From Glycomyces tritici (lineage in GTDB: Bacteria; Actinomycetota; Actinomycetes; Mycobacteriales; Micromonosporaceae), in the NCBI RefSeq assembly GCF_030403505.1, contig NZ_JAUEMJ010000004.1, forward strand, positions 124,001 to 188,000: a stretch of 64,000 nt of DNA, read 5' to 3'. Position numbers and translations under genes: made by a program. How positions within the stretch are numbered: position 1 is the first letter of the stretch; each line of letters begins with the position of its first letter. Shown here one piece after another: positions 21,137-36,097 of the stretch. The notes beneath the pieces were generated by a model. It worked only from the letters and a program-made list of their open reading frames with translations. It had not been told where the DNA came from and did not search any database.

Positions 21137-21181
21137 CTGTGCCCCCGGCAGGATTCGAACCTGCGACACCTGGTCCCGGAA
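21137..21181 (-). repeat. Left attachment site (tRNA-Arg 3' stub)
   Basis: These 45 bases are identical to 36022–36066, the 3' part of the intact tRNA-Arg(CCG). Identity ends sharply on both sides (G versus T before, C versus A after). It is one arm of the direct repeat made by site-specific integration. Confidence 0.92.
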
Positions 21182-23267: not shown

Positions 23268-24188
23268 TCACTTCTCTACGGGTTTGACGACACCCGAGGT
23301 GAACCACTGCACGAGTGTGGCTGCGAGGATCACTGCGGCCCGTGCCTCTTCAAGGCTTGCGTCTGCGTAGTCGGGTCGTCCGTGCCTGCTTTCGTGGCCT
23401 CTCCAGAGGGTCCGGAGCATGACCGCGAGGCTCTTAGCCCCAGGAGCCTTGGTGCTGTCCCTGAGGAGGAGCTTCCACTTGGGTGTCTCGGCCTCCAAGA
23501 TCGAGAACAGGTCGGCGAGGGTGGGCTCGGCCGCCTTTGGTTGGATCACCGACAGCGCAGCGGTTTCCACGGCCACGACTGCATGGCTGTAGGCCACTGA
23601 TGCGCGGGGATTGGTGCCGTACGCGTCGAGCCACGCCTCCTGGAGCTTCAGGGATGCCGCATCGGTGGCGTCGAGTGCTCCCTGCACCACATTGAGGACA
23701 CCATCCGGCACGCGCTTGGTGAGCCGCGCGCGGTTGTCGTTCCAGCGGATCACTGTCCAGGCTGAGCCGCCATCGTTGAGGATGCCTTCAAGAGGATGCG
23801 CTGAATACGTATTGAAGTGCGAGATGCTGGCAAGATAGCCGGTGAGGTTTGTGAATTCTGCGGTGCCGAGCTTGCGGAGGTGCGGCAGTACTGTGTTTCT
23901 CCAGCTGAGGTGAGTATCGGCAAGGAAGCCGATGTCGGTGCGTGCTGTGTTCTGGAAGTCCACAAACTTGTGGGAGTAGACGTAGCCGCTCTCCGCTCCG
24001 AGAACACTTTGGAACCACCGGAAGATTGCCTCCCGCAGGTAGCTGGGGAACTCTTCGGTGAGTGCCTCCTCGCGGCCAGTGGGCACTACGGGGGTCCACG
24101 CTTCGTTGCTCACGAAGGTCAGAGTAGTGGTGACTGTTGAGCGTCGCTCATCCTGAGGACCGAAATTACTCGGCCGTCTCTCCGTCAT
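23268..24188 (-). CDS. Abi-C-like protein, possible abortive-infection factor
   Basis: 306 residues from the ATG at 24188; an in-frame ATG at 24239 is possible. It has no signal or membrane helix. The last 60 residues (KSLAVMLRTLWRGHESRHG near 268–270, then EEARAAVILAATLVQWFTSG) resemble the C-terminal domain of phage abortive-infection proteins, in which an RHG-like motif precedes a helix of the same A-A-x-LV-x-W/F pattern. The N-terminal two thirds are not recognised. It overlaps the small GntR gene upstream by 23 bases and so is controlled with it. A defence function is inference from similarity and location. Confidence 0.65.
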   Translation of the reverse strand: MTERRPSNFGPQDERRSTVTTTLTFVSNEAWTPVVPTGREEALTEEFPSYLREAIFRWFQSVLGAESGYVYSHKFVDFQNTARTDIGFLADTHLSWRNTVLPHLRKLGTAEFTNLTGYLASISHFNTYSAHPLEGILNDGGSAWTVIRWNDNRARLTKRVPDGVLNVVQGALDATDAASLKLQEAWLDAYGTNPRASVAYSHAVVAVETAALSVIQPKAAEPTLADLFSILEAETPKWKLLLRDSTKAPGAKSLAVMLRTLWRGHESRHGRPDYADASLEEARAAVILAATLVQWFTSGVVKPVEK

Positions 24189-24426
24189 CCGTAACGAAGG
24201 TGCCACGTCCCGGCACTGTGAACAGAACACCCTCTTCAATCAGGACGCGGACGGCCTTCCGGGTGGTCTCGCGGGCGAGTCCGTAGGCCTGGACCAACTG
24301 TGCCTCGGACATTATGCGACGGCCCGGCTGCCAGTCGCCGCGCTCGATGCGGGCGCGCAGGATCGCGGCCAATTGCGCGTACACGGGCGTCGGCGCTTCA
24401 TGGTCGATCACTGCGTCTGCGTCCAT
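24166..24426 (-). CDS. Short GntR-family DNA-binding protein
   Basis: 86 residues consisting almost only of a GntR winged helix-turn-helix: PVYAQLAAILRARIERGDWQPGRRIMSEAQLVQAYGLARETTRKAVRVLIEEGVLFTVPGRGTFV in outline. No effector-binding domain follows. Such short GntR proteins are common in actinomycete plasmids and elements. It is the first gene of a two-gene unit with the Abi-C-like protein. Direct repeats in its upstream region (24469–24499) are candidate operators for autoregulation. Confidence 0.85.
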   Translation of the reverse strand: MDADAVIDHEAPTPVYAQLAAILRARIERGDWQPGRRIMSEAQLVQAYGLARETTRKAVRVLIEEGVLFTVPGRGTFVTDDGETAE

Positions 24427-24468
24427 ACGCTGACGCTAGACCGGAACGCAACCCCATCTACCAGGATC

Positions 24469-24499
24469 GACATCCCTAGACGTCTGTAGACATGCCTAG
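24469..24499. promoter_or_regulatory. Candidate operator between divergent genes
   Basis: Two direct copies of GACATSCCTAG (24469–24479 and 24489–24499) are spaced exactly 20 bases apart, two helical turns, with the palindrome AGACGTCT between them. They lie 43–73 bases upstream of the short GntR gene and before the divergent gene at 24589. Binding by that GntR protein is inferred. Confidence 0.45.
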
Positions 24500-24588
24500 T
24501 CAGGTGGCCTATCCTGGATAAAGGAAGACCCTGGCGGCCGCCTTGCACCGGCCCCAGGGTGTGGCCTCACCCGTCGAAGGGGAGAGAC

Positions 24589-24912
24589 ATGGACAGCCTA
24601 TCTACCAACCATGGCGCAACGGAAGACCTCGGTGCAGAGCCGCTACCGGCCATCGTGCCCGAGCGAATGAACTGGTTCCACACGTGGGACGACCGCACCG
24701 AGGTCGTGAGCCTTTACCTCGACCGTTCCCGCCGGGACGGGTGCCTGGTGCTGGCCGCCCGGCGCCCCCTTCCCGAGGAGAATGCCTGCACGCTCTACTG
24801 GAGCGGCGATCAGCTCAAGGGCATCGTCTGGCGCGGCACCGCCGCCGACCGCTCCCGCGCCTGGCGCGACCTACAGCGCGAACGGGTGCAACGCTTCCTC
24901 GCAGGCGACTGA
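24589..24912 (+). CDS. Hypothetical protein, 107 aa
   Basis: The ATG at 24589 has GGGGAGAG just upstream and gives a 107-residue soluble protein. The visible core is MNWFHTWDDRTEVVSLYLDRSRRDGCLVLAARRPLPEENACTLYW, suggesting a small antiparallel beta sheet, with a C-terminal helix DLQRERVQRFL. I do not recognise the family. It is transcribed away from the short GntR gene and runs into the palindromic region at 24933. Confidence 0.6.
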   Translation: MDSLSTNHGATEDLGAEPLPAIVPERMNWFHTWDDRTEVVSLYLDRSRRDGCLVLAARRPLPEENACTLYWSGDQLKGIVWRGTAADRSRAWRDLQRERVQRFLAGD

Positions 24913-24932: not shown

Positions 24933-25196
24933 CCCCTGGCCAAAATGGCCAATATGGCCAAAAGTCCCGGATAGGCACAGTGACCTGCGGAAACGCCCTG
25001 TGTCGTGACATGGCCAAAACTCGGCCAATACTCCTCCCGACATGGCCAAAAGTCCCGGCGCGGTCTCGCGCCGGGACTTTTGGCCATGTGCTCTTGAGTT
25101 TTGGCCGAGTTTTGGCCATGTCCAGGATTCAAATGAATTCCCTGGTCAGACGCGTGATTCCGGAGTTTTGGCCATATTGGCCATTTTGGCCAGGGG
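24933..25196. repeat. 264-bp concentric palindrome of TGGCCA boxes
   Basis: Three nested inverted repeats share one exact centre between 25064 and 25065. The outer arms are 31 bases (24933–24963 and 25166–25196), the middle arms 21 bases (25007–25027 and 25102–25122), and the inner hairpin has 23-base arms with a four-base loop (25040–25089). All arms are perfect. The spacers (43 and 12 bases) have equal lengths but unrelated sequence. Nine TGGCCA boxes occur, three in each outer arm at 9-base spacing, plus two TGGCCG/CGGCCA variants. The region lies between convergent genes, with its right end one base from the stop of the HAD gene. Confidence 0.9.
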
Positions 25197-25197
25197 G

Positions 25198-25854
25198 TCA
25201 GAATGACTCGACGACGAGCGAAGCGCCCGCATCCTGGAGGCGCTGCGCCTTCCCCTTCTTGTTTGCGTAGCCGACCGTCATGACGCCGGCGCTTTTCCCA
25301 GCCTCGACATCAGTCACGGAATCGCCGATGAAGCAGGCCTGCCGCGCGTCGGTGCCCGTCGCCTTCAGCGCTTCGCTCAGGAGGTGTGGGTCCGGCTTCA
25401 TCCGCTCGGGGAGCCCGAACGGTCTCCCGATGACGACCGTGATGACCTCATCGAGGCCGCGTTGCTCGAGGTATTTGGCGATTGCCTCCGCGCTGTTGTT
25501 GCTCACGATCGCGACCGCGAGGCCAGCCGTGACCGCCGTGGCGATCAGGTCAGTCATGCCCGGAGTCGGCTCCGCACTCTCGACGGCCGAGCGCTCCGCA
25601 AGGCTTAGTTGCTCGTCGATGCTGTCGACTTGAGCGCGAGGCAGTGCACCGGCGGCGCCGCGCAGTACCTCCATCGGGTCTTGCTCGTCCTTGAGTTCGT
25701 CGGCAAGCTGCGGGGCGAGCTCCCGAAGCGACTCTACGAGTTCAGCAGCGATCTGCGAGGCGGGATACCCGGCGAAGACGCTGCACACGGGCCCGTCGAA
25801 GTCGAGCAGTAGCAGCGACTTGCCCGCGAGGGCTTCTTGGAAGTCGAGCTTCAT
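25198..25854 (-). CDS. HAD-family hydrolase (phosphoglycolate-phosphatase-like)
   Basis: 218 residues from the ATG at 25854, which overlaps the stop of the GntR gene as ATGA. All HAD motifs are present: nucleophile LLLLDFDGPV (Asp 18, Asp 20), motif II VAIVSNNS, motif III lysine in FGLPERMKPDPHLLSEAL, and motif IV CFIGDSVTDVEAGKSAG. A helical cap lies between motifs I and II. The likely substrate is a small phosphorylated metabolite. It is co-transcribed with the large GntR regulator, a pairing seen in other actinomycete elements, but its role there is not established. Confidence 0.85.
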   Translation of the reverse strand: MKLDFQEALAGKSLLLLDFDGPVCSVFAGYPASQIAAELVESLRELAPQLADELKDEQDPMEVLRGAAGALPRAQVDSIDEQLSLAERSAVESAEPTPGMTDLIATAVTAGLAVAIVSNNSAEAIAKYLEQRGLDEVITVVIGRPFGLPERMKPDPHLLSEALKATGTDARQACFIGDSVTDVEAGKSAGVMTVGYANKKGKAQRLQDAGASLVVESF

Positions 25855-26732
25855 CCGATGTCCCGTGTAGTCGCGACGGTGTCCCACAGCGAATCGAACC
25901 AGGTCCGGGCGGCGCTCACGAACATCTCGCCCTGTTCAGCGTCCTCACCGGTGCTGGAGAAGTGGAACAGGCTGGCGTCCTTGCCCATCGGGTCGAAGAT
26001 CTCGACTCGATCGCCGTTGATAGGCACCGAGTGTTGGACGATCGGGTAGAAGCCGAAGAACACCTCGGCGTCGTTGAGGATGAAGAGCTTGAAGACCGGC
26101 GAGATGCCGTGCATCCGAACTTCGACCGATCCCGTCTTGATCAGGCCGAGTTCTTCCAGCTCGCGCACGTCGTTCACGATGGTTTCGAGCGCGCGGTCGG
26201 TGATACGAGCCATCCGCTCGGTGACGCTCTTTGCGTCCTGAGACGGGTCGACGGGAGTCGGGAGCGACATCGGCATTCGCATGTCGGACACCATGATCCG
26301 GAGCTTGATGTCCTGAGGCGTCAGCTCCCCCATCCGGATGCGGTCGAGCGGTTCGAGCACAACGCCCTTGAGCGTTTCACCGGAGAACCCCGCGAAGTCG
26401 ATCGCGACGTGATCGTCCTTGAAGAGCGATTCGACGTGAGGCCTGAGCTCGACGGTTCGGTGGGTCTTGACTCGCACCCTCGGCAACCTGCCCTGCTGGG
26501 TGACGACGAGCTTTTCCCGGTCGGTGAGGATCTTGAACGCGCTCTTGACGGTTTCGCGCGCGACCCCGAAGCGGTTCTGAAGCTTTTGGTTGGAGGGCAG
26601 TGTCTCGCCGGGGGCGAACTTGCCCGTGAGGATTGCGGCCTTGAGCCGATTTGCGATCTGAATTGACGAGCTGTCGGAGCTGTCTGGATCGAGTTTCCCC
26701 AGGAAGTCGTACTCGTCTGTGTAGTCATCCAT
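25851..26732 (-). CDS. GntR-family regulator, KorSA-like
   Basis: 293 residues. The N-terminal winged helix-turn-helix spans about residues 20–90 (IANRLKAAILTGKFAPGETLPSNQKLQNRFGVARETVKSAFKIL). The C-terminal region of about 200 residues is not a standard UTRA or FCD domain; it resembles regulators that sense phosphorylated nucleotides or metabolites only loosely. In pSAM2 the GntR protein KorSA represses the replication/transfer activator. Here three TGGCTAGCCA palindromes fill the divergent promoter region to its right, and the first lies 15 bases before this gene, consistent with autorepression and control of the transfer operon. Confidence 0.8.
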   Translation of the reverse strand: MDDYTDEYDFLGKLDPDSSDSSSIQIANRLKAAILTGKFAPGETLPSNQKLQNRFGVARETVKSAFKILTDREKLVVTQQGRLPRVRVKTHRTVELRPHVESLFKDDHVAIDFAGFSGETLKGVVLEPLDRIRMGELTPQDIKLRIMVSDMRMPMSLPTPVDPSQDAKSVTERMARITDRALETIVNDVRELEELGLIKTGSVEVRMHGISPVFKLFILNDAEVFFGFYPIVQHSVPINGDRVEIFDPMGKDASLFHFSSTGEDAEQGEMFVSAARTWFDSLWDTVATTRDIG

Positions 26733-26747
26733 GCCCCCAGGCTAACA

Positions 26748-26761
26748 CCTGGCTAGCCAGG
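26748..26761. promoter_or_regulatory. Operator O1, CCTGGCTAGCCAGG
   Basis: A perfect 14-base palindrome 16 bases before the start of the KorSA-like gene. It shares the core TGGCTAGCCA with two further sites to the right and is probably the autoregulatory site. Confidence 0.75.
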
Positions 26762-26784
26762 ATGGAAATTTCTGACCCAAGTGG

Positions 26785-26813
26785 TTGACATGGCTAGCCA
26801 AGCTCCGTATGGT
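26785..26813 (+). promoter_or_regulatory. Promoter of the transfer operon with operator O2 in its spacer
   Basis: TTGACA (26785–26790) and TATGGT (26808–26813) are separated by 17 bases. The spacer opens with the palindrome TGGCTAGCCA (26791–26800). A repressor bound there would exclude RNA polymerase. Confidence 0.75.
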
Positions 26814-26823
26814 GATGGATAAC

Positions 26824-26843
26824 CAACCTGGCTAGCCAGGTTG
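26824..26843. promoter_or_regulatory. Operator O3, 20-base perfect palindrome
   Basis: CAACCTGG-CTAG-CCAGGTTG is the longest of the three sites and lies just after the expected transcription start. Centres of O1, O2 and O3 are about 41 and 38 bases apart, near multiples of a helical turn, so bound repressors could lie on one face of the DNA. Confidence 0.75.
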
Positions 26844-28955: not shown

Positions 28956-29036
28956 CCAACTCCTCTGGTGGGGCCGGGTCAGCTGCTCGGCTCGGTCCCA
29001 CCGCTACCGCTCCGAACTGGAAGGGAGCCAACGACA

Positions 29037-31169
29037 ATGACTATTGAGAACTTCGACTGGCAGGCCCGCGAGGCCGAACTCAAGGCAAACAAGGCCGCAC
29101 TCGAGATCGAGACGATCGAGCCTGACGAGGGCGACCGCGCCGACGCCGGCACGGTCCTCGTGGACGACCCGACTTTGCACGCGGCCTGGGATGCCCCGAC
29201 CGATGACCGGCGCGCGCCGATCCTCCCGGCATGGGTCCTGTCGCGGTCCGGTCTGGCCGCCGAGCTGACCCGGTTGGCACGCCTGACGGCGTACCGGTGT
29301 GGCTACCACGGTGTGCGCGTACCGCTCTACGGCCTGCGCCTTGCGGGTTGGGCCCCGGTCGGTACGGCCCGTGCGATCGGTACGGTCTGGCGCTGGGCCT
29401 CCGACCAGGAAGGCCGACCGGCCAGGTCGGATGCGGTGGCCGGTCACGACTGGCAGGCCTACCAGTCGCTCGCCAAGCTCCGCGACCGCCGGGTGCGGTT
29501 CCGCGGCATGGTGACCGCAACCGCCGGGGCCGGTCTCGTCGGCGCGGGCCTGTACCTCGGCCTGGCCACGCCCGACCCGATCGCCTGGGGCGCGCTCGGT
29601 ACGACCGTGGCCGGGCTCGGCCTGGCCGGGAAACCCGCCGACAAGCCGCTCGTCACCCGCGCCGTGGTCAAGGCAAAGCTGCGCCCGCTGACCTCGCCCA
29701 TGGTCGAGAAAGCCTTGTCCCGCATCGGCATCGCTGCCCTGTCGGCCATGTTCAAGGGCGGGGAGAGCGTGCACTGGGTGGACCCGATCATCCGCGACGG
29801 GGCGGGTTGGCGGGCCGTCCTTGACCTGCCCGCCGGGACCACTGCCGTTGAGGTGATCGACCGGCGCGACAAGCTCGCCGCCGCCCTCGCCCGGCCCCTG
29901 GGCTGCGTGTGGCCCGAAGGCCAGTCCGACGCGCACCCGGGCCGCCTGGTCCTCTGGGTCGGGGACACCGACCTGGCCGATGCCAAGGCCGTCACCTGGC
30001 CGCTCGCGCGGTCGGGCACCGTCGACCTGTTCCAGCCGTTCCCGCTCGGCGTCGACCCGCGCGGCCAGGCGGTCACGGGTGAGCTGATGTTCACGAACTG
30101 GCTGGTCGGTTCGATCCCGGGCATGGGCAAGACGTTCCTGGTCAAGCTCCCGGTCCTGGCCGCTGGGCTCGACGCCCGCGCCGAGGTCCAGGTCTTCGAA
30201 CTCAAGGGCACCGGTGACCTCGCCTTCGCCGAGCAGTACGCCACCCGCTACGCGTCCGGCGCCGACGACGACGAGATCGAGGCCGCGCTGATTGCGTTGC
30301 GGGACTTGCGGAACGAGTGCAAGAAGCGGGCCCGGATCATCAAGGACCTGCCCCGCGACATCTGCCCGGAGAACAAGGTCACGCCCGAACTGGCGTCCCG
30401 CAAGGTCCTCGGCCTGCACCCCCTCGTGGTCGCGATCGATGAGTGCCAGGAGCTGTTCAGCCACGCCGAGTTCGGGAAGGAGGCCGCCGAGCTGGCCGAG
30501 AAGATCGTCAAGCTCGGCCGCGCCCTCGGCGTCATCCTCATCCTCGCTACCCAACGGCCCGACAAGGACTCCCTGCCGACCGGTGTCTCGGCGAACGTGG
30601 GGACGCGGGCGTGCCTGCGGGTCATGGGCCAGGTCGAGAACGACATGATCCTCGGCACCTCGGCCTACAAGAACGGCATCCGCGCCACCATGTTCACCAA
30701 GCGCGACCGGGGCGTGTTCTACCTGGTCGGCGCCGCCGACGAGCCACTGATCGTCAAGGGCGCGTTCGTCGACGGGCCCAAGAGTGACGCCATCGCCGCC
30801 AGGGCCCGCGCGCTCCGCATCGAACGTGGCACGCTCACCGGCCACGCCGCCGGACAGGCCACCACGGTCGCCGTGGAGCCCGCGCACAACGTCTTGGACG
30901 ACCTGCACGCCGTCTGGCCTGCAGGGGAGGCGAACGTCTGGAACTCGACCCTGGTCGGCCGCCTCGCCGAGCTGCGGCCCGATGTCTACGGGCTGTGGGC
31001 CGATCTGGAGGACACCGCCAAGACCGAGGCGCTGACCGCCGCCGTCAAGCCCTACGGCCTATCGACCAAGGGCGTGGGCCGCCGTGTCGGCGGCGAAGTC
31101 GTCAACCGGCGCGGCCTCGCCAAAACCGACCTCGACACGGCCCGCGAGGGCCGATCCGGGGGCCGATAA
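29037..31169 (+). CDS. FtsK/SpoIIIE-type DNA translocase (TraB/TraSA type)
   Basis: 710 residues from the ATG at 29037, preceded by AAGGGAG. The N-terminal third has one or two membrane helices (about 160–200, TATAGAGLVGAGLYLGLAT). The motor domain shows Walker A GSIPGMGKT at residue 358, Walker B LVVAIDECQEL near 463–473 and the sensor ATQRPDKDSLPTGVSANVGTR. The C-terminal 70 residues form a winged-helix-like gamma domain (KTEALTAAVKPYGLSTKGVGRR) that in TraB reads the transfer recognition sequences. This protein alone pumps double-stranded element DNA into the recipient. Repeats just after the gene are candidate target sites. Confidence 0.9.
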   Translation: MTIENFDWQAREAELKANKAALEIETIEPDEGDRADAGTVLVDDPTLHAAWDAPTDDRRAPILPAWVLSRSGLAAELTRLARLTAYRCGYHGVRVPLYGLRLAGWAPVGTARAIGTVWRWASDQEGRPARSDAVAGHDWQAYQSLAKLRDRRVRFRGMVTATAGAGLVGAGLYLGLATPDPIAWGALGTTVAGLGLAGKPADKPLVTRAVVKAKLRPLTSPMVEKALSRIGIAALSAMFKGGESVHWVDPIIRDGAGWRAVLDLPAGTTAVEVIDRRDKLAAALARPLGCVWPEGQSDAHPGRLVLWVGDTDLADAKAVTWPLARSGTVDLFQPFPLGVDPRGQAVTGELMFTNWLVGSIPGMGKTFLVKLPVLAAGLDARAEVQVFELKGTGDLAFAEQYATRYASGADDDEIEAALIALRDLRNECKKRARIIKDLPRDICPENKVTPELASRKVLGLHPLVVAIDECQELFSHAEFGKEAAELAEKIVKLGRALGVILILATQRPDKDSLPTGVSANVGTRACLRVMGQVENDMILGTSAYKNGIRATMFTKRDRGVFYLVGAADEPLIVKGAFVDGPKSDAIAARARALRIERGTLTGHAAGQATTVAVEPAHNVLDDLHAVWPAGEANVWNSTLVGRLAELRPDVYGLWADLEDTAKTEALTAAVKPYGLSTKGVGRRVGGEVVNRRGLAKTDLDTAREGRSGGR

Positions 31170-31173
31170 GGGC

Positions 31174-31259
31174 CGCTAACGCTAGCGGGCCCTGCGCTAA
31201 CGATAGCGGGCCCGCTAGCGGACAACACATCACCTGATCAGGGCGTTAGCCGCTAGCGC
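31174..31259. repeat. Repeats after the translocase gene, candidate clt/transfer locus
   Basis: Two 19-base direct repeats, CGCTAACGMTAGCGGGCCC (31174–31192 and 31195–31213), differ in one base and are 21 bases apart. The second runs into the palindrome TAGCGGGCCCGCTA (31204–31217). A further palindrome CCTGATCAGG (31233–31242) and TTAGCCGCTAGCG (31246–31258) follow. In related plasmids the clt locus bound by TraB lies at the end of the traB gene. A transcription terminator is the alternative reading. Confidence 0.6.
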
Positions 31260-31301
31260 CCCTCCCTGACCTCACCCAAAAACACGCTGAAAGGGGCTCC
31301 C

Positions 31302-31553: not shown

Positions 31554-31994
31554 ATGAGCCTGACCGAACCCGCTGGCTACCTGCCGAACGCGCTCATCGC
31601 CGACATCGACGGGACCGTGGCCCTCATGGGCGACCGCGATCCCTACGACGAGACGCGCGTCCTGGACGACCAGCCGAACGTCGAAGTCGTCCGCCTGGTC
31701 ACCGTCCTGGCGATGAACGGCTACCGCATCGTGTTCGTCTCCGGTCGCACCGAGGCGTGCCGCGAGGACACCGAGACCTGGCTCCACCGCCAATTCCCGT
31801 TCTACTTCAGCGCCCTCCACATGCGCGCCATCGGCGACAAGCGCCGCGATGCCGAGGTCAAGACCGAGATCTACCGCGAGCGGATCGAACCGCACTTCAA
31901 CGTCCGTTGGGTCTTCGACGACCGCAACCAGACCGTGGCCGCTTGGCGCGCGCTCGGCCTCACCTGCCTCCAAGTCGCCCCCGGCGACTTCTAA
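31554..31994 (+). CDS. Polynucleotide 3'-phosphatase-like HAD protein
   Basis: 146 residues. It resembles the phosphatase half of phage T4 polynucleotide kinase: motif I ADIDGTVALMGDRDPYD (Asp 17, Asp 19), the DDQPNVEVVRLVTVLAMNGYRIVFVSGRTEACREDTETWL segment, and the acidic motif VFDDRNQTVAAWRALG. There is no kinase P-loop, so it is a stand-alone phosphatase. Such an enzyme clears 3'-phosphates from DNA or RNA ends. In the element it could process ends during replication or repair nicked tRNA; both ideas are inference. GAAGGAG precedes the ATG and the leader motif CCGTCCGCCA lies 25 bases upstream. Confidence 0.8.
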   Translation: MSLTEPAGYLPNALIADIDGTVALMGDRDPYDETRVLDDQPNVEVVRLVTVLAMNGYRIVFVSGRTEACREDTETWLHRQFPFYFSALHMRAIGDKRRDAEVKTEIYRERIEPHFNVRWVFDDRNQTVAAWRALGLTCLQVAPGDF

Positions 31995-32055
31995 GCACCG
32001 CACCACCGGGGCCGCCGCACGGCGGCCCCGGCCCCTAGGAAGGACACCGAATGTC

Positions 32056-33975
32056 ATGAAGCCCAAGAACCCGAACCACCAGGCAGAGCAAGCCGTTCTC
32101 GGCGCGGCCATGCTCGACGCCGCCACCGTGCCCGCCCTCGCCGCCCTGGTCGACGCCGGATCGTTCGACGAGCCCCGCCACGGCCTCATCTGGGACGCCA
32201 TCGCCGCCCAACACGTCACAGGCGAGCCCACCGCCGCCACGGCCGTCGCGCTCCGGCTCGACGCCGAAGGCGATCTCAAGAAGATCGGCGGCGGCCCCTA
32301 CCTGTACGACCTCGTGGCCGCCGCCCCGGCCGCCGCCTCCGGTGAGTACTACGCCGGCAAAGTCGCCGACGCCGCCAAGCGCCGCGCCATCAAGGTCGCC
32401 GCCGCGCAGATCAACCAGCTCGGCGACAAGACCGGCGAACCCGTCGCCGCCGTCCTCGCCCGCTCCCGCGCCTTCCTCGACAGCATCGAAGGAGCGGGCG
32501 AAGAATGGCCCGCCCCGGTGCCGCTGACCGAGGCCCGCGCGCTCCCGGTGTTCCCGGCCGCGTGCCTGCCCGACTGGCTGGGCGCGATGGTCGATGCCGT
32601 GGCCGAGGCCACCCAGACACCGACCGACCTCGCCGGTTCGATCGCCCTCGCCGCGCTGTCGACGGCCGCGCAGGGCCGGGTACACGTCCAAGCCGGGCCC
32701 GACTGGATCGAACCGTGCAACCTGTTCACCTGCTGCGCACTCCCCCCAGGCAACCGGAAATCGTCGGTGTTCGCGGCGATGGTCCGCCCGATCCTGGAAG
32801 CCGAGGCCGAACTAGCCGAGGCCGCCCGGCCCCGCATCATCGAAGCGATCACCGAAGCCGAGATCGCCAAGCGCGCCGCCGAGCAAGCCCTGGCCGTCGC
32901 GTCCAAGAACCCCGGTGACCCCGATGCGGCGAACGGGGCGAAGTCGGCCGCGATGGAAGCGGACGCCGTTCGTATCCCGTTGCAGCCGAAGCTGGTCGCC
33001 GACGACATCACGCCCGAGGCCGCCAAGTCCCTGCTCGCCGAGCAGGACGGGCGCCTGGCGATCCTGTCCGCTGAGGGCGGGATCTTCGCGACCATCGCGG
33101 GCCGCTACTCCGGCGTGCCGGACTTGGACGTGTTCCTCAAGGGCCACGCCGGGGACATGCTGCGCGTGATCCGCAAGTCGGCCCCGGCCGAGTACGTGGC
33201 CGCTCCCGCGCTGACGCTCGGCCTCGCCGTGCAGCCCGAGGTGTTGCGCGAGGCCGCGCGGATGCCCGGGTTCGAGGACCGGGGGCTGATGGCGCGGTTC
33301 CTGTTCACGCTCCCGACTTCCCGGGTGGGGTTCCGCAACCCGTCACCGGCCGCCGTCCCGGGCGCGGTGAAGGCCACCTACGGGCGCAAGGTCGCCGGGC
33401 TCGTCCACACCATGCACCACCGCTCTGAGGCAACGGTCCTGGAACTGACCGCCGAGGCGCGCGCGCGAGTGGTCGCCCTGGAGGCCGAACGGGAACCGCG
33501 CCTGGGCCCCGGTGGCGAGTGGGAGCCGATCCTGAACTGGGCCAACAAGTGGACCGGTGCCGTGGTCCGCATCGCGGGCCTGCTCCACATGGCCCGCTAC
33601 CCCACCAGCGGCCATGCCGCGCCCGTCGAAGCCGACACGATCGACGCCGCCACGATCCTGGGCTACTACTTCGCCGACCACGCACTCGGCGTCCGGTCCT
33701 ACATGGGCGTGGGCGCCGAAGTCGGCCCCGCGGCCGAACTGCTCGACTGGCTGACCCGCCACGGCAAGCCCGGCCTCAGCGTCCGAGACATGTACCGAGG
33801 CGTCCGAGGCCGCCGCTCCCTCGGCACGGCCGCCGCCGTCCGCGACGCCGCCTCCCGCCTGGTCGACCACGGATACCTCCGCGAGCGGCCCCGTGCCGCC
33901 CGCAAGGGCGGGCGTCCCGCCTCGCCCCGCTACGACCTCCACCCAGACATGGGAGTGGCCGGTGACCACGCCTAG
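32056..33975 (+). CDS. Replication protein: DnaB N-terminal domain fused to DUF3987
   Basis: 639 residues from the ATG at 32056. Residues about 1–110 match the N-terminal domain of DnaB-type helicases (NHQAEQAVLGAAMLDAATVPAL, FDEPRHGLIWDAI, GGGPYLYDLVAAAPAAASGEYYAGKVADAAKRR). Residues about 170–560 are DUF3987, with a P-loop-like ALPPGNRKSSVF near 231, an ILSAEGGIF acidic strand and LTLGLAVQPEVL. The C-terminus has a winged-helix-like segment. Other AICEs use RepSA or a primase-polymerase; no such gene is seen here, so this protein is the best replication-initiator/helicase candidate. It lies just upstream of xis and int. Confidence 0.8.
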   Translation: MKPKNPNHQAEQAVLGAAMLDAATVPALAALVDAGSFDEPRHGLIWDAIAAQHVTGEPTAATAVALRLDAEGDLKKIGGGPYLYDLVAAAPAAASGEYYAGKVADAAKRRAIKVAAAQINQLGDKTGEPVAAVLARSRAFLDSIEGAGEEWPAPVPLTEARALPVFPAACLPDWLGAMVDAVAEATQTPTDLAGSIALAALSTAAQGRVHVQAGPDWIEPCNLFTCCALPPGNRKSSVFAAMVRPILEAEAELAEAARPRIIEAITEAEIAKRAAEQALAVASKNPGDPDAANGAKSAAMEADAVRIPLQPKLVADDITPEAAKSLLAEQDGRLAILSAEGGIFATIAGRYSGVPDLDVFLKGHAGDMLRVIRKSAPAEYVAAPALTLGLAVQPEVLREAARMPGFEDRGLMARFLFTLPTSRVGFRNPSPAAVPGAVKATYGRKVAGLVHTMHHRSEATVLELTAEARARVVALEAEREPRLGPGGEWEPILNWANKWTGAVVRIAGLLHMARYPTSGHAAPVEADTIDAATILGYYFADHALGVRSYMGVGAEVGPAAELLDWLTRHGKPGLSVRDMYRGVRGRRSLGTAAAVRDAASRLVDHGYLRERPRAARKGGRPASPRYDLHPDMGVAGDHA

Positions 33976-34030: not shown

Positions 34031-34282
34031 ATGACACCCACAACCGCCGCCGTCAACGCACACACCGGGCGGGCCGACCTCGACGTGGAGCCGTTCTACA
34101 CCGTTAGGGAGAGCGGCGAGATCCTCAGGATCGGCCGCAGCAAGCTCTACGAGGAGATGGCCCAAGGCAGGCTCAAGGCCATCAAGGTCGGGCGCGCGAC
34201 CCGCATCCCGGCCGAGTGGCTGAAGGACTACCGCGACCTGCTCATCGCCGAAGGCCTGGAGGCAGCACCGTGCCCGAATTGA
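34031..34282 (+). CDS. xis: Excisionase-like DNA-binding protein
   Basis: 83 residues from the ATG at 34031, preceded by GAAGGAAC and, 20 bases upstream, the leader motif CCGTCCGCCA. The core FYTVRESGEILRIGRSKLYEEMAQGRLKAIKVGRATRIPAEWLKDY is a MerR/AlpA-like winged helix-turn-helix of the excisionase type. It overlaps the integrase gene by 13 bases. It is expected to bend DNA at the attachment site and favour excision. Confidence 0.88.
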   Translation: MTPTTAAVNAHTGRADLDVEPFYTVRESGEILRIGRSKLYEEMAQGRLKAIKVGRATRIPAEWLKDYRDLLIAEGLEAAPCPN

Positions 34283-35469
34283 ACGAAAACCAGGAAGGCC
34301 GCAAGCGGGCCGAGAAGGGCGAGGGCACCGTCTACTGGGACGCCGCCAAGAACACGTTCTGCGCCGAGCTGTCCGTTGGACGCACCCGGACCGGCCGCCG
34401 GAAGCGTCTCAAGGCATATGGCAAGACCGAGGCTAAGGCGAAGAAGGCCCTCAGGGACAAGCTGAAGGACTTCAACGCCGGACTCGACACCTCGACCACC
34501 TACACGGTCGCAGACGCCGTCAACGACTGGCACAAGCGCGGCCAGAAGGCCGGAGAGGAGACCCGGAAGCGCGACCGCTACGTCATCGATGGACAGATCA
34601 TCCCGGCAATCGGCGGCGTCAAGCTCAAAGAGCTGACCGCCGACGACGTTGACGACATGCTCATCCACTACTCAGCTACGCATGCGACCAGCACGCTCAA
34701 GAAGATCCACAGCGTCCTGAACCGAGCGATCAAGCACGCGCAGCGCCGCGACAAGGTCGGGCGCAACGTCGCCGCGCTCATCGAGGAGATCCCGGAGGGC
34801 AAGCCCGGCCGGCCGAGCAAGTCCATGAGCCCCGAGCAGGTCAAGGCAGTGTTCAAGGCCAGCAAGGGAACCTGGTTTCACGCCTACCTGGTGGTGTCGA
34901 ACATGACTGGCATCCGCACCGAAGAAGTCCGGCCGCTGGAGTGGAAGCGGACGCACCTCAACCCAGTCAAGGGCGAGCGGTGTACCTGCGATCAGGTGCA
35001 CACTGAGACGCTGCCACCACACGTCGAAGTGTGGCGCTCGGTCCGCGTGCATGGAGACACCAAGACCCAGAAGAGCAGGCGCACGATCGCCCTGCCGAAG
35101 ATGGTTGTAGCGGCGCTCTTTGAGCACCGCGAGAGCGACCTCGCCTGGCGAGCAGAGCACGGCTACAGCACCAAGCCGCGCTACGTGTTCGGCACCCGCA
35201 ACAACACGGTGAAGCTCGCCCGCAACGTCCGGCGGTTCTACCGGTCCGTTCTTACGAGCGCTGGGCTCAACCCGGACGAGTGGTGCCCGCGCGAGACGCG
35301 GCACACCTTCGTGTCGATCATGTCGGACCTCGGCGCGGACCTCGAAATGATCGCCGACCTGGTCGGGCACAAGGACACCCGTACCACGCGCCAGGTTTAC
35401 CGCCACCAGCTCCGGCCAGTCATCACAAAGGGAGCCGAGATGATCGAAGCGGCTTTCAGCGACGAGTAG
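34270..35469 (+). CDS. int: Tyrosine site-specific integrase
   Basis: 399 residues from the GTG at 34270, with GGAGG seven bases upstream inside xis. The order is an N-terminal AP2-like arm-binding domain (about 15–75), a SAM-like core-binding domain (about 78–165) and the catalytic domain (about 185–395). Catalytic residues are Arg 216 (TGIRTEEV), the second box PRETRHTF with Arg 344 and His 345 (Arg stands where many relatives have the first His, as is common in actinobacterial members), GHKD, and nucleophile Tyr 377. An insertion with CTCDQVH lies near 238–245. It recombines the element at tRNA-Arg. Confidence 0.93.
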   Translation: MPELNENQEGRKRAEKGEGTVYWDAAKNTFCAELSVGRTRTGRRKRLKAYGKTEAKAKKALRDKLKDFNAGLDTSTTYTVADAVNDWHKRGQKAGEETRKRDRYVIDGQIIPAIGGVKLKELTADDVDDMLIHYSATHATSTLKKIHSVLNRAIKHAQRRDKVGRNVAALIEEIPEGKPGRPSKSMSPEQVKAVFKASKGTWFHAYLVVSNMTGIRTEEVRPLEWKRTHLNPVKGERCTCDQVHTETLPPHVEVWRSVRVHGDTKTQKSRRTIALPKMVVAALFEHRESDLAWRAEHGYSTKPRYVFGTRNNTVKLARNVRRFYRSVLTSAGLNPDEWCPRETRHTFVSIMSDLGADLEMIADLVGHKDTRTTRQVYRHQLRPVITKGAEMIEAAFSDE

Positions 35470-36021: not shown

Positions 36022-36066
36022 CTGTGCCCCCGGCAGGATTCGAACCTGCGACACCTGGTCCCGGAA
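36022..36066 (-). repeat. Right attachment site within tRNA-Arg
   Basis: 45 bases identical to 21137–21181. They include the 3' half of the tRNA from the anticodon loop to the end, so the element restores a full tRNA on insertion. Confidence 0.92.
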
Positions 36067-36097
36067 ACCAGTGCTCTATCCACTGAGCTACGGAGGC
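36025..36097 (-). tRNA. tRNA-Arg (anticodon CCG)
   Basis: A 73-base cloverleaf. The acceptor stem GCCTCCG pairs with CGGGGGC (one G-U), with discriminator A. The anticodon stem CTGGT/ACCAG encloses loop TTCCGGG with anticodon CCG for codon CGG. The T arm contains GGTTCGAATCC. CCA is not encoded. The 3' half is the insertion target of the element. Confidence 0.95.

Follow-up and report, generated by a model that had tools for sequence, protein, structure and literature searches.

Iteron-type origins of theta plasmids are built from short direct repeats of lineage-specific sequence that are read by a winged-helix replication initiator (Rep), and an AT-rich unwinding region and a DnaA box accompany them, although not universally. 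P4 alpha and the Rep of Staphylococcus aureus pathogenicity islands (SaPI) are helicase-type initiators with a C-terminal DNA-binding domain and short repeats in two clusters, P4 alpha having in addition a bacterial-type (Toprim) primase. At the origin of SV40, inverted sets of short sites seat head-to-head hexamers of large T antigen. Here, these systems were compared with a 264-bp palindrome in an actinomycete integrative and conjugative element (AICE) of Glycomyces tritici. The window, that is, the whole stretch of DNA analysed, comprises 64,000 nucleotides of contig NZ_JAUEMJ010000004.1, and all positions refer to it. Judging from sequence comparison and a structure model, the palindrome is most probably the replication origin (oriV) of the element, of the iteron type and bound by a C-terminal winged helix predicted in Rep. 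By analogy, it would work like an iteron origin.

According to the available part of an AICE survey, AICEs need a Rep and an origin. A double-strand origin is named there for the RepSA rolling-circle class and none for the Reps associated with primase/polymerase (prim-pol) genes, and the latter genes are considered likely unforeseen replication modules (PMC3218068). The accessible text on an Actinoplanes AICE reports RepSA (PMC3364876), and that on phage-inducible chromosomal minimalist islands (PICMI) uses DUF3987 in a primase model and does not contain the word iteron (PMC10803314). The origin of the crenarchaeal plasmid pRN1 is a movable stem-loop behind a prim-pol/helicase rep gene in the available portion of its report, which also mentions P4 (PMC4234260). 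On the Streptomyces theta plasmid pWTY27, the target of Rep is a long inverted repeat that overlaps short direct repeats, and the cis-acting locus of transfer (clt) is a distinct site next to tra, as far as the accessible text goes (PMC3583192). In the open-licence literature searched, no title or abstract start described an origin for DUF3987-type AICE Reps.

The palindrome in the window consists of the following parts.

24933-25196, no strand assigned: whole mirror structure, two convergent six-box modules, proposed oriV
24933-25062, plus strand: left module, box spacing 9-9-56-11-21
25067-25196, minus strand: right module, inverted, spacing identical to the left
24937-24963, plus strand: outer triplet of 9-bp boxes, TGGCCAAAA-TGGCCAATA-TGGCCAAAA
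25166-25192, minus strand: outer triplet, mirror copy
24981-24995, plus strand: second conserved motif TGACCTGCGGAAACG, inside the 56-bp gap
25134-25148, minus strand: diverged counterpart of the second motif, TGACCAGGGAATTC
25040-25089, no strand assigned: inner hairpin with a 23-bp perfect stem, a 4-nt loop and the innermost box of each module

Like iteron-type origins, this site has short direct repeats, a Rep with a (here predicted) winged helix and a lineage-specific repeat sequence; unlike them, it has triplets at 9-bp spacing, mirror-paired sets of six boxes, no DnaA box found and a Rep of DnaB-N/DUF3987 composition. The initiator type and the short repeats in two clusters are shared with P4 alpha and SaPI Rep, whereas the box spacing differs. 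SV40 large T antigen is an unrelated protein, and the likeness is limited to the proposed loading geometry. With pRN1, as presented in the available text, the site shares an inverted structure directly behind rep (in the compact relatives described below), an initiator with a C-terminal winged helix and the freedom to lie elsewhere; the pRN1 origin is without iterons there, whereas here a six-box module is present that can be unmirrored (PMC4234260). An inverted structure behind rep exists in the compact relatives, but the Rep of the window is without a prim-pol domain, and assignment to that type was rejected. The accessible part of the pWTY27 report likewise describes an actinobacterial theta replicon with a Rep on a long inverted repeat overlapping short direct repeats; in that system, however, RepA binds, RepB is the primase/polymerase, the repeats are GTGGGAAC and TTCCCAC, and no six-box spacing rule is given (PMC3583192).

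In the mirror structure, 96 of 132 positions were matched around a single centre between 25064 and 25065, with perfect runs of 31 (from 24933), 22 (from 25007), and 23 (from 25040) bases. This was the best centre in the 64-kb window, 40 dinucleotide shuffles of which peaked at 66, and 2000 shuffles of the 264 bp gave a mean of 34 and a maximum of 51 mirror matches. The palindrome is far beyond chance. The original prediction, made from the letters of the window alone, had located it correctly at 24933-25196 and described concentric arms of 31, 21, and 23 bases; the outer and inner arms and the shared centre were confirmed, while the middle arm measures 22. It had also counted nine TGGCCA boxes, and the count is ten exact boxes plus two CGGCCA. 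All twelve are aimed at the centre, the outer-arm triplets having the predicted 9-bp spacing. Within the window, TGGCCAAAA was confined to the palindrome, and no second cluster of its boxes was seen in the element.

The unit of the structure is a module of six inward-pointing boxes (about GGmCArAAn) with the spacing 9-9-56-11-21 and TGACCTGsGGAAACG in the 56-bp gap. Numbers preceded by L, G, and C are our labels for loci, genomes, and contigs. A mirror-symmetry scan of loci with the DNA translocase TraB found like centres in Glycomyces L074, L075, L077, L078, and L132, and also in a Streptomyces plasmid (L072) and in Micromonospora L101 and L102; L099 (79) and L120 (81) scored in the scan too, with sequences unrelated to the module. 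Three further palindromes came from additional stretches (L252 in G130, L254 in G155, and L257 in G020), and a DNA search added L265 (G002). Ten palindromes (the window, L074, L075, L077, L078, L132, L252, L254, L257, and L265) were thus fitted as 20 halves. The best spacing was 9-9-(55 to 57)-11-(21, in the other halves 11 or 20). Each half matched 27-30 of the 30 core letters, and six boxes were present in 19 halves and five in one. This fit allowed a choice among several spacings; its control, the empty strand of L258, reached 21/30 with three boxes. In the six palindromes compared, all module boxes face the centre, one match in L077 that faces the opposite way lying outside the module. Whole-palindrome identity was 47-83% over 15 pairs; the box letters vary and the spacing stays.

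The 56-bp gap contains TGACCTGsGGAAACG or a diverged form of it, and a CCTGCGGAAAC motif is seen again in L072 and at the L101 site, which is of the GTTGACA type. In L258 (Rep 53% identical), a single unmirrored module with six perfect boxes was found; this lone copy indicates that the module is the unit. Accordingly, the window palindrome is most readily understood as two head-to-head copies of a directional module, and this accounts for spacers of equal length that share little sequence identity. The two spacers had been called unrelated; their equal lengths stand, but the left carries TGACCTGCGGAAACG and the right the diverged TGACCAGGGAATTC at the same offset. Similarly, the idea that box position is kept while the sequence between is free was right in spirit, except that the box letters drift as well, broadly together with Rep.

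Weaker or irregular fits were also recorded. L261 (Rep 57%) has part of a single module with a degenerate rather than a clear triplet, and its five-box fit failed (14-15/25); L072 reached 19/25 in that fit, with doublets replacing triplets. The minus strand of L254 scored 18 in an earlier fit and 29/30 in the later six-box fit, and L260 has the spacing 44-12-19. Beyond these relatives, in which the box arrangement recurs, BLAST of the 264 bp against plasmids and phages gave short, weak matches only. Viral contigs yielded 66 stretches with TGGCCA-N3-TGGCCA-N3-TGGCCA, and a script scan listed 32 with clusters of TGGCCA or TTTTGGCC/GGCCAAAA; the listed loci look unrelated, never having more than one TTTTGGCC/GGCCAAAA per 300 bp.

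A compact form of the site was found behind rep in relatives of the element. The rep loci numbered 86, of which 76 were distinct. Of the distinct loci, 50 encode a full-length Rep of 45-65% identity, and in 43 of them a triplet of 9-bp boxes, a short spacer, and an inverted triplet occurred at most 200 bp from the rep stop. Forty-two of these pairs begin at -7 to +31 relative to the stop and one at +161, the spacer being about 12-19 bp depending on the register found. No triplet pair appeared in sequences resampled at the dinucleotide frequencies of 62 loci, in a slightly coarser scan. The box variants were TGACAGAAC, TGCCAGAAC, TGGCAGAAA, TCCGCAGAA, and TGGCCAGAA. Thus, a short direct-repeat array lies in cis to its cognate rep, as in iteron-type origins. 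Full-length Reps below 45% identity had the pair in two of six cases, and the compact scan found it at none of the 12 loci with DUF3987-only Reps. Behind such rep genes, several loci have GTTGACA or GGTGACA repeats instead (for example, L140, L144, L174, and L175). None of the eight Glycomyces-like Reps has it near rep; five have it far away, and for the remaining three the site is on another contig of the same genome or on a further stretch. In this group, the origin candidate is larger, is doubled in mirror image, and is separated from the rep stop by about 8-13 kb.

Two side observations concern the compact form. In L213, L222, and L229 it is doubled, with two triplet pairs in tandem behind rep (the L165 site is that of L213). 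L111, L118, and L120, loci that yielded TraB but not this Rep, have inverted 9-bp triplets that are perhaps origins of other Rep classes.

As the boxes vary among relatives, their similarity was compared with the identities of Rep and TraB. It followed Rep (rho 0.36, p 0.001; partial Mantel 0.37, p 0.001; n=48) and not TraB (rho 0.00, p 0.47; partial -0.09, p 0.93; n=48). The comparison required a triplet pair scoring at least 35 and a TraB, which omits DUF3987-only elements and L072; 48 of 55 elements were left after near-identical Reps were dropped, L113 and L242 being excluded by hand. Box classes changed 6 times on a quick Rep tree and 13 times on a quick TraB tree, with a minimum of 4 and about 24 in shuffles of either; the classes (49 rows) followed a simple rule, with seven CCG elements assigned by hand and mixed TGA/TGC counted as TGA. 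L100 and L101, with a TraB identity of 97% and a Rep identity of 43%, carry different boxes (TGCCAGAAC vs GTTGACA); L207 and L231, at 91% for Rep and 27% for TraB, carry similar ones (cosine 0.75). Moreover, among ten window-element proteins searched by tblastn, Rep alone was present in all 12 module-bearing elements, the window included, and in G155 and G074 it was the sole one found. The repeat sequence therefore covaries with Rep, as in iteron-type systems, subject to the linkage and the close-pair exceptions given below.

The protein proposed to bind the boxes and its predicted binding domain are located as follows.

32026-33975, plus strand: Rep, with DnaB N-terminal-like domain, DUF3987 and predicted C-terminal winged helix; proposed binder
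33724-33939, plus strand: winged helix predicted in Rep at residues 567-638 of the 649, its recognition helix being predicted at 602-614

The open reading frame (ORF) opens at 31849, and similarity with relatives begins near 32026. Pfam found DnaB-N and DUF3987 only and no prim-pol domain. The N-terminus (32026-32460) resembles the N-terminal domain of Mycobacterium tuberculosis DnaB with 35-36% identity and a template modelling score of about 0.9 by target length over about 137 residues; Foldseek with the whole Rep retrieved DnaB chains, with a close fit to that domain only. In an AlphaFold2 model (mean predicted local distance difference test score, pLDDT, 87.6), residues 567-638 form a helix-helix-helix-strand-strand arrangement. 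The isolated domain (mean pLDDT 71.9) resembles winged-helix proteins such as SSV1 F-93, Fur, and PerR at modest E-values, the best E being 0.0067 and none below 0.001.

Residue mapping within Rep is suggestive only. All 10 Reps with TGC boxes have Phe at residue 605 (ORF position 664), which belongs to the predicted recognition helix, and none of the 39 others does; Phe605 and the TGC box each changed twice on the tree, and two independent pairs cannot reach significance. Over 209 close Rep pairs, the similarity of residues 646-680 was 0.64 for the 115 pairs with different boxes and 0.90 for the 77 with the same box, and that of residues 101-600 was 0.85 and 0.90, respectively. When pairs were matched on 251-600, the larger drops fell at 169-211 and 619-708 (0.06 to 0.12; 0.04 at 601-625 and 673-697), with at most 0.05 elsewhere. 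Nine of the top 14 box-associated Rep columns are within 619-708; as TraB columns reach similar values, this mapping is a lead and not a proof.

Several observations weigh against the palindrome being an iteron-type oriV bound by Rep. Seven of the 50 full-length-Rep loci are without a triplet pair near rep. In the compact elements the box adjoins rep, and linkage alone could yield the covariation; unlinked cases are few. Among nine listed pairs, five have a box cosine of at least 0.75, but four have 0.35 or less despite Reps 75-85% identical, L217 and L228 (Reps 84% identical) being among the latter. L077 and L078 have Reps 90% identical and different boxes, with the rep stop more than 8 kb from the site; their Reps diverge most at 626-675, ends aside. 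Box classes cluster on the TraB tree too (13 changes against a shuffled mean of 23.9, with 0 of 200 as low), and the mean column association with box class, scored by the rule alone over 48 rows, was 0.43 for Rep and 0.42 for TraB. In a sliding-window Mantel test, Rep 217-253 and 601-661 exceeded the null, and so did one TraB window, so that these results carry little weight alone. Finally, the GC content of the site is 0.48-0.64 (50-bp steps, 24951-25200) against 0.67 for the element, a modest AT enrichment, and no DnaA box was matched inside the palindrome with at most one mismatch allowed.

One alternative is a Rep-binding site with another role, namely, copy control, incompatibility, or partition, with the true origin elsewhere, for example, within rep. 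All ties between boxes and Rep fit such a site equally, and it is far from rep in the Glycomyces-type group. In the available text on pIJ101, SpdA2 binds short palindromes that affect stability and not transfer (PMC4170104). We consider this explanation unlikely, although a single observation speaks against it: no second cluster of these boxes was seen in the window element, the only TGGCCAAAA copies being those of the palindrome. The sps site of pIJ101 itself, a CGTCACGTGACG palindrome in or near spdA in the same portion of that report (PMC4170104), has a different sequence and is absent from the 264 bp.

The element that carries the palindrome is 14,930 bp long and lies between 45-bp attachment (att) repeats, one of them within tRNA-Arg(ccg). 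It encodes an integrase (Int), an excisionase (Xis), Rep, an FtsK/TraB-type translocase, a GntR regulator, and NUDIX and HAD proteins. With att repeats in tRNA-Arg, Int, Xis, Rep, and TraB, it is an AICE. Its nearest near-full-length TraB relatives are from Glycomyces (84% in G. albidus). Its other features are listed below.

21137-21181, no strand assigned: 45-bp att repeat, far end of the element
24559-24912, plus strand: 117-aa protein of unknown function, convergent neighbour
25198-25887, minus strand: HAD-type hydrolase, convergent neighbour
25851-26732, minus strand: GntR-family regulator
28968-31169, plus strand: TraB/FtsK-type DNA translocase
31173-31260, plus strand: CTAG-rich repeat cluster behind traB, candidate clt
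34031-34282, plus strand: Xis
34216-35469, plus strand: tyrosine integrase (ORF)
36022-36066, no strand assigned: 45-bp att repeat in tRNA-Arg(ccg) (36024-36097, minus strand)

A transfer site had been among the functions offered for the palindrome, which would then be a clt recognised by TraB through 8-bp repeats. Short direct and inverted repeats do resemble clt loci described elsewhere, in the accessible part of one report (PMC3583192). However, the repeats of a clt would follow TraB and adjoin tra, whereas the palindrome is 3.8 kb from traB and its boxes do not follow TraB, given the 13 changes on that tree vs 6 on the Rep tree. The module also occurs in G130, G155, G020, and G074; within the stretches covered there, tblastn gave no TraB of this family. 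Moreover, a separate CTAG cluster sits behind traB. At least three CTAG (or CTATCGATAG) within 300 bp behind traB were found in 57 of 68 distinct TraB loci, with a mean of 6.1, where the CTAG density of the loci predicts 0.33. Of the 11 exceptions, ten have TraBs at most 37% identical to that of the window, and L228 is at 41%. The repeat letters vary among relatives (CCTAGG in L100, CTATCGATAG in L072). From its sequence, the cluster at 31173-31260 appears to be a better clt candidate than the palindrome, for which this role is very unlikely. A generic count of 8-mers within one mismatch drew attention to the CTAG cluster but was discarded as a test, since 228 of 456 random sequences passed.

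As predicted, the palindrome fills the gap between convergent ORFs with stops at 24912 and 25198, a position that would suit a bidirectional terminator. Its fold as DNA is very stable (-117.9 kcal/mol, z -18.9), and AAAA and TTTT border the GC-rich core of the inner hairpin. A terminator would, however, have no need for the six-box spacing, the 9-bp periodicity, or a lone module. The T tracts stem from the box letters and are missing in L074 and L252, and a scan for intrinsic terminators, with the rule of five T in eight bases, called none at the palindrome. Termination could be a side effect of the palindrome; as its purpose, it is highly improbable. An Rfam scan gave matches below the gathering score only, four to microRNA hairpin models and one to a small RNA.

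An operator array for GntR or another regulator encoded nearby, or a neutral mobile palindromic repeat, is extremely improbable. The gntR gene is 0.7 kb away, and the TGGC/GCCA half-sites are alike, as the original prediction had pointed out for the TGGCTAGCCA operators. Those sites exist (26750, 26791, and 26829), but nothing was found that ties them to the palindrome, and neither GntR nor HAD turned up in the palindrome-bearing elements of G002 (C259), G003, G004, and G155. A scattered neutral repeat disagrees with the copy numbers. In the eight Glycomyces-type genomes searched, there are as many full-length palindromes as Rep genes of this kind, G002 having two of each and every other genome one of each, and the other DNA matches are 25-41 bp. 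The first DNA search missed G004 and G130 and matched G001 in part; with the second, G001 and G130 were matched in full and G004 by a short match at the place of the L077 palindrome. In G. tenuis (G003), palindrome L132 and Rep L079 are on separate contigs. The same holds for the second pair in G002, with the palindrome on C79 and Rep on C314, and we assumed in both cases that each palindrome and Rep belong to one element.

Among the functions originally offered, a replication origin is hence the supported one. At such an origin, the predicted winged helix of Rep would bind the 9-bp boxes of each module, and the facing modules would load two Rep assemblies head to head. The DNA may then be opened between or beside the assemblies by the DUF3987 domain, and the DnaB-N-like domain may recruit a host primase or helicase. 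Theta replication of the excised circle would follow, with the host polymerase taking over. Most full-length-Rep relatives outside the Glycomyces-type group would use a compact origin of 3+3 boxes directly behind rep.

A DnaB-type ring has six subunits, and the six boxes per module equal this number, which motivates a more detailed double-assembly origin. One Rep hexamer would sit on each module with one subunit per box, and the mirror pair would load two DnaB-like initiator-helicases that face each other. Box specificity would be set by a single recognition helix of Rep, with origins and Reps diverging in step and defining compatibility groups among co-resident AICEs. We regard this elaboration as possible, though rather doubtful. 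With a defined origin, minimal replicons and vectors could be built for Glycomyces and Micromonospora. It would also supply a rule of compatibility between elements that can be tested, and a simple model of initiator-helicase loading.

Minor observations were made at other places. A weak sigma-70-like promoter match (9/12) lies within the left module at 25005-25032. The three exact TGGCTAGCCA sites at 26750-26838, between the divergent GntR and NUDIX genes, are likely GntR operators, and a promoter-like match at 26785-26813 lies amid them. A weak second GntR-type helix-turn-helix match was found at 24178-24408 (minus strand), with three CTAG sites beside it (24430-24500). In another genome, G072:C1 7368184-7386298 contains three copies of rep at intervals of about 8 kb, suggestive of a tandem element array.
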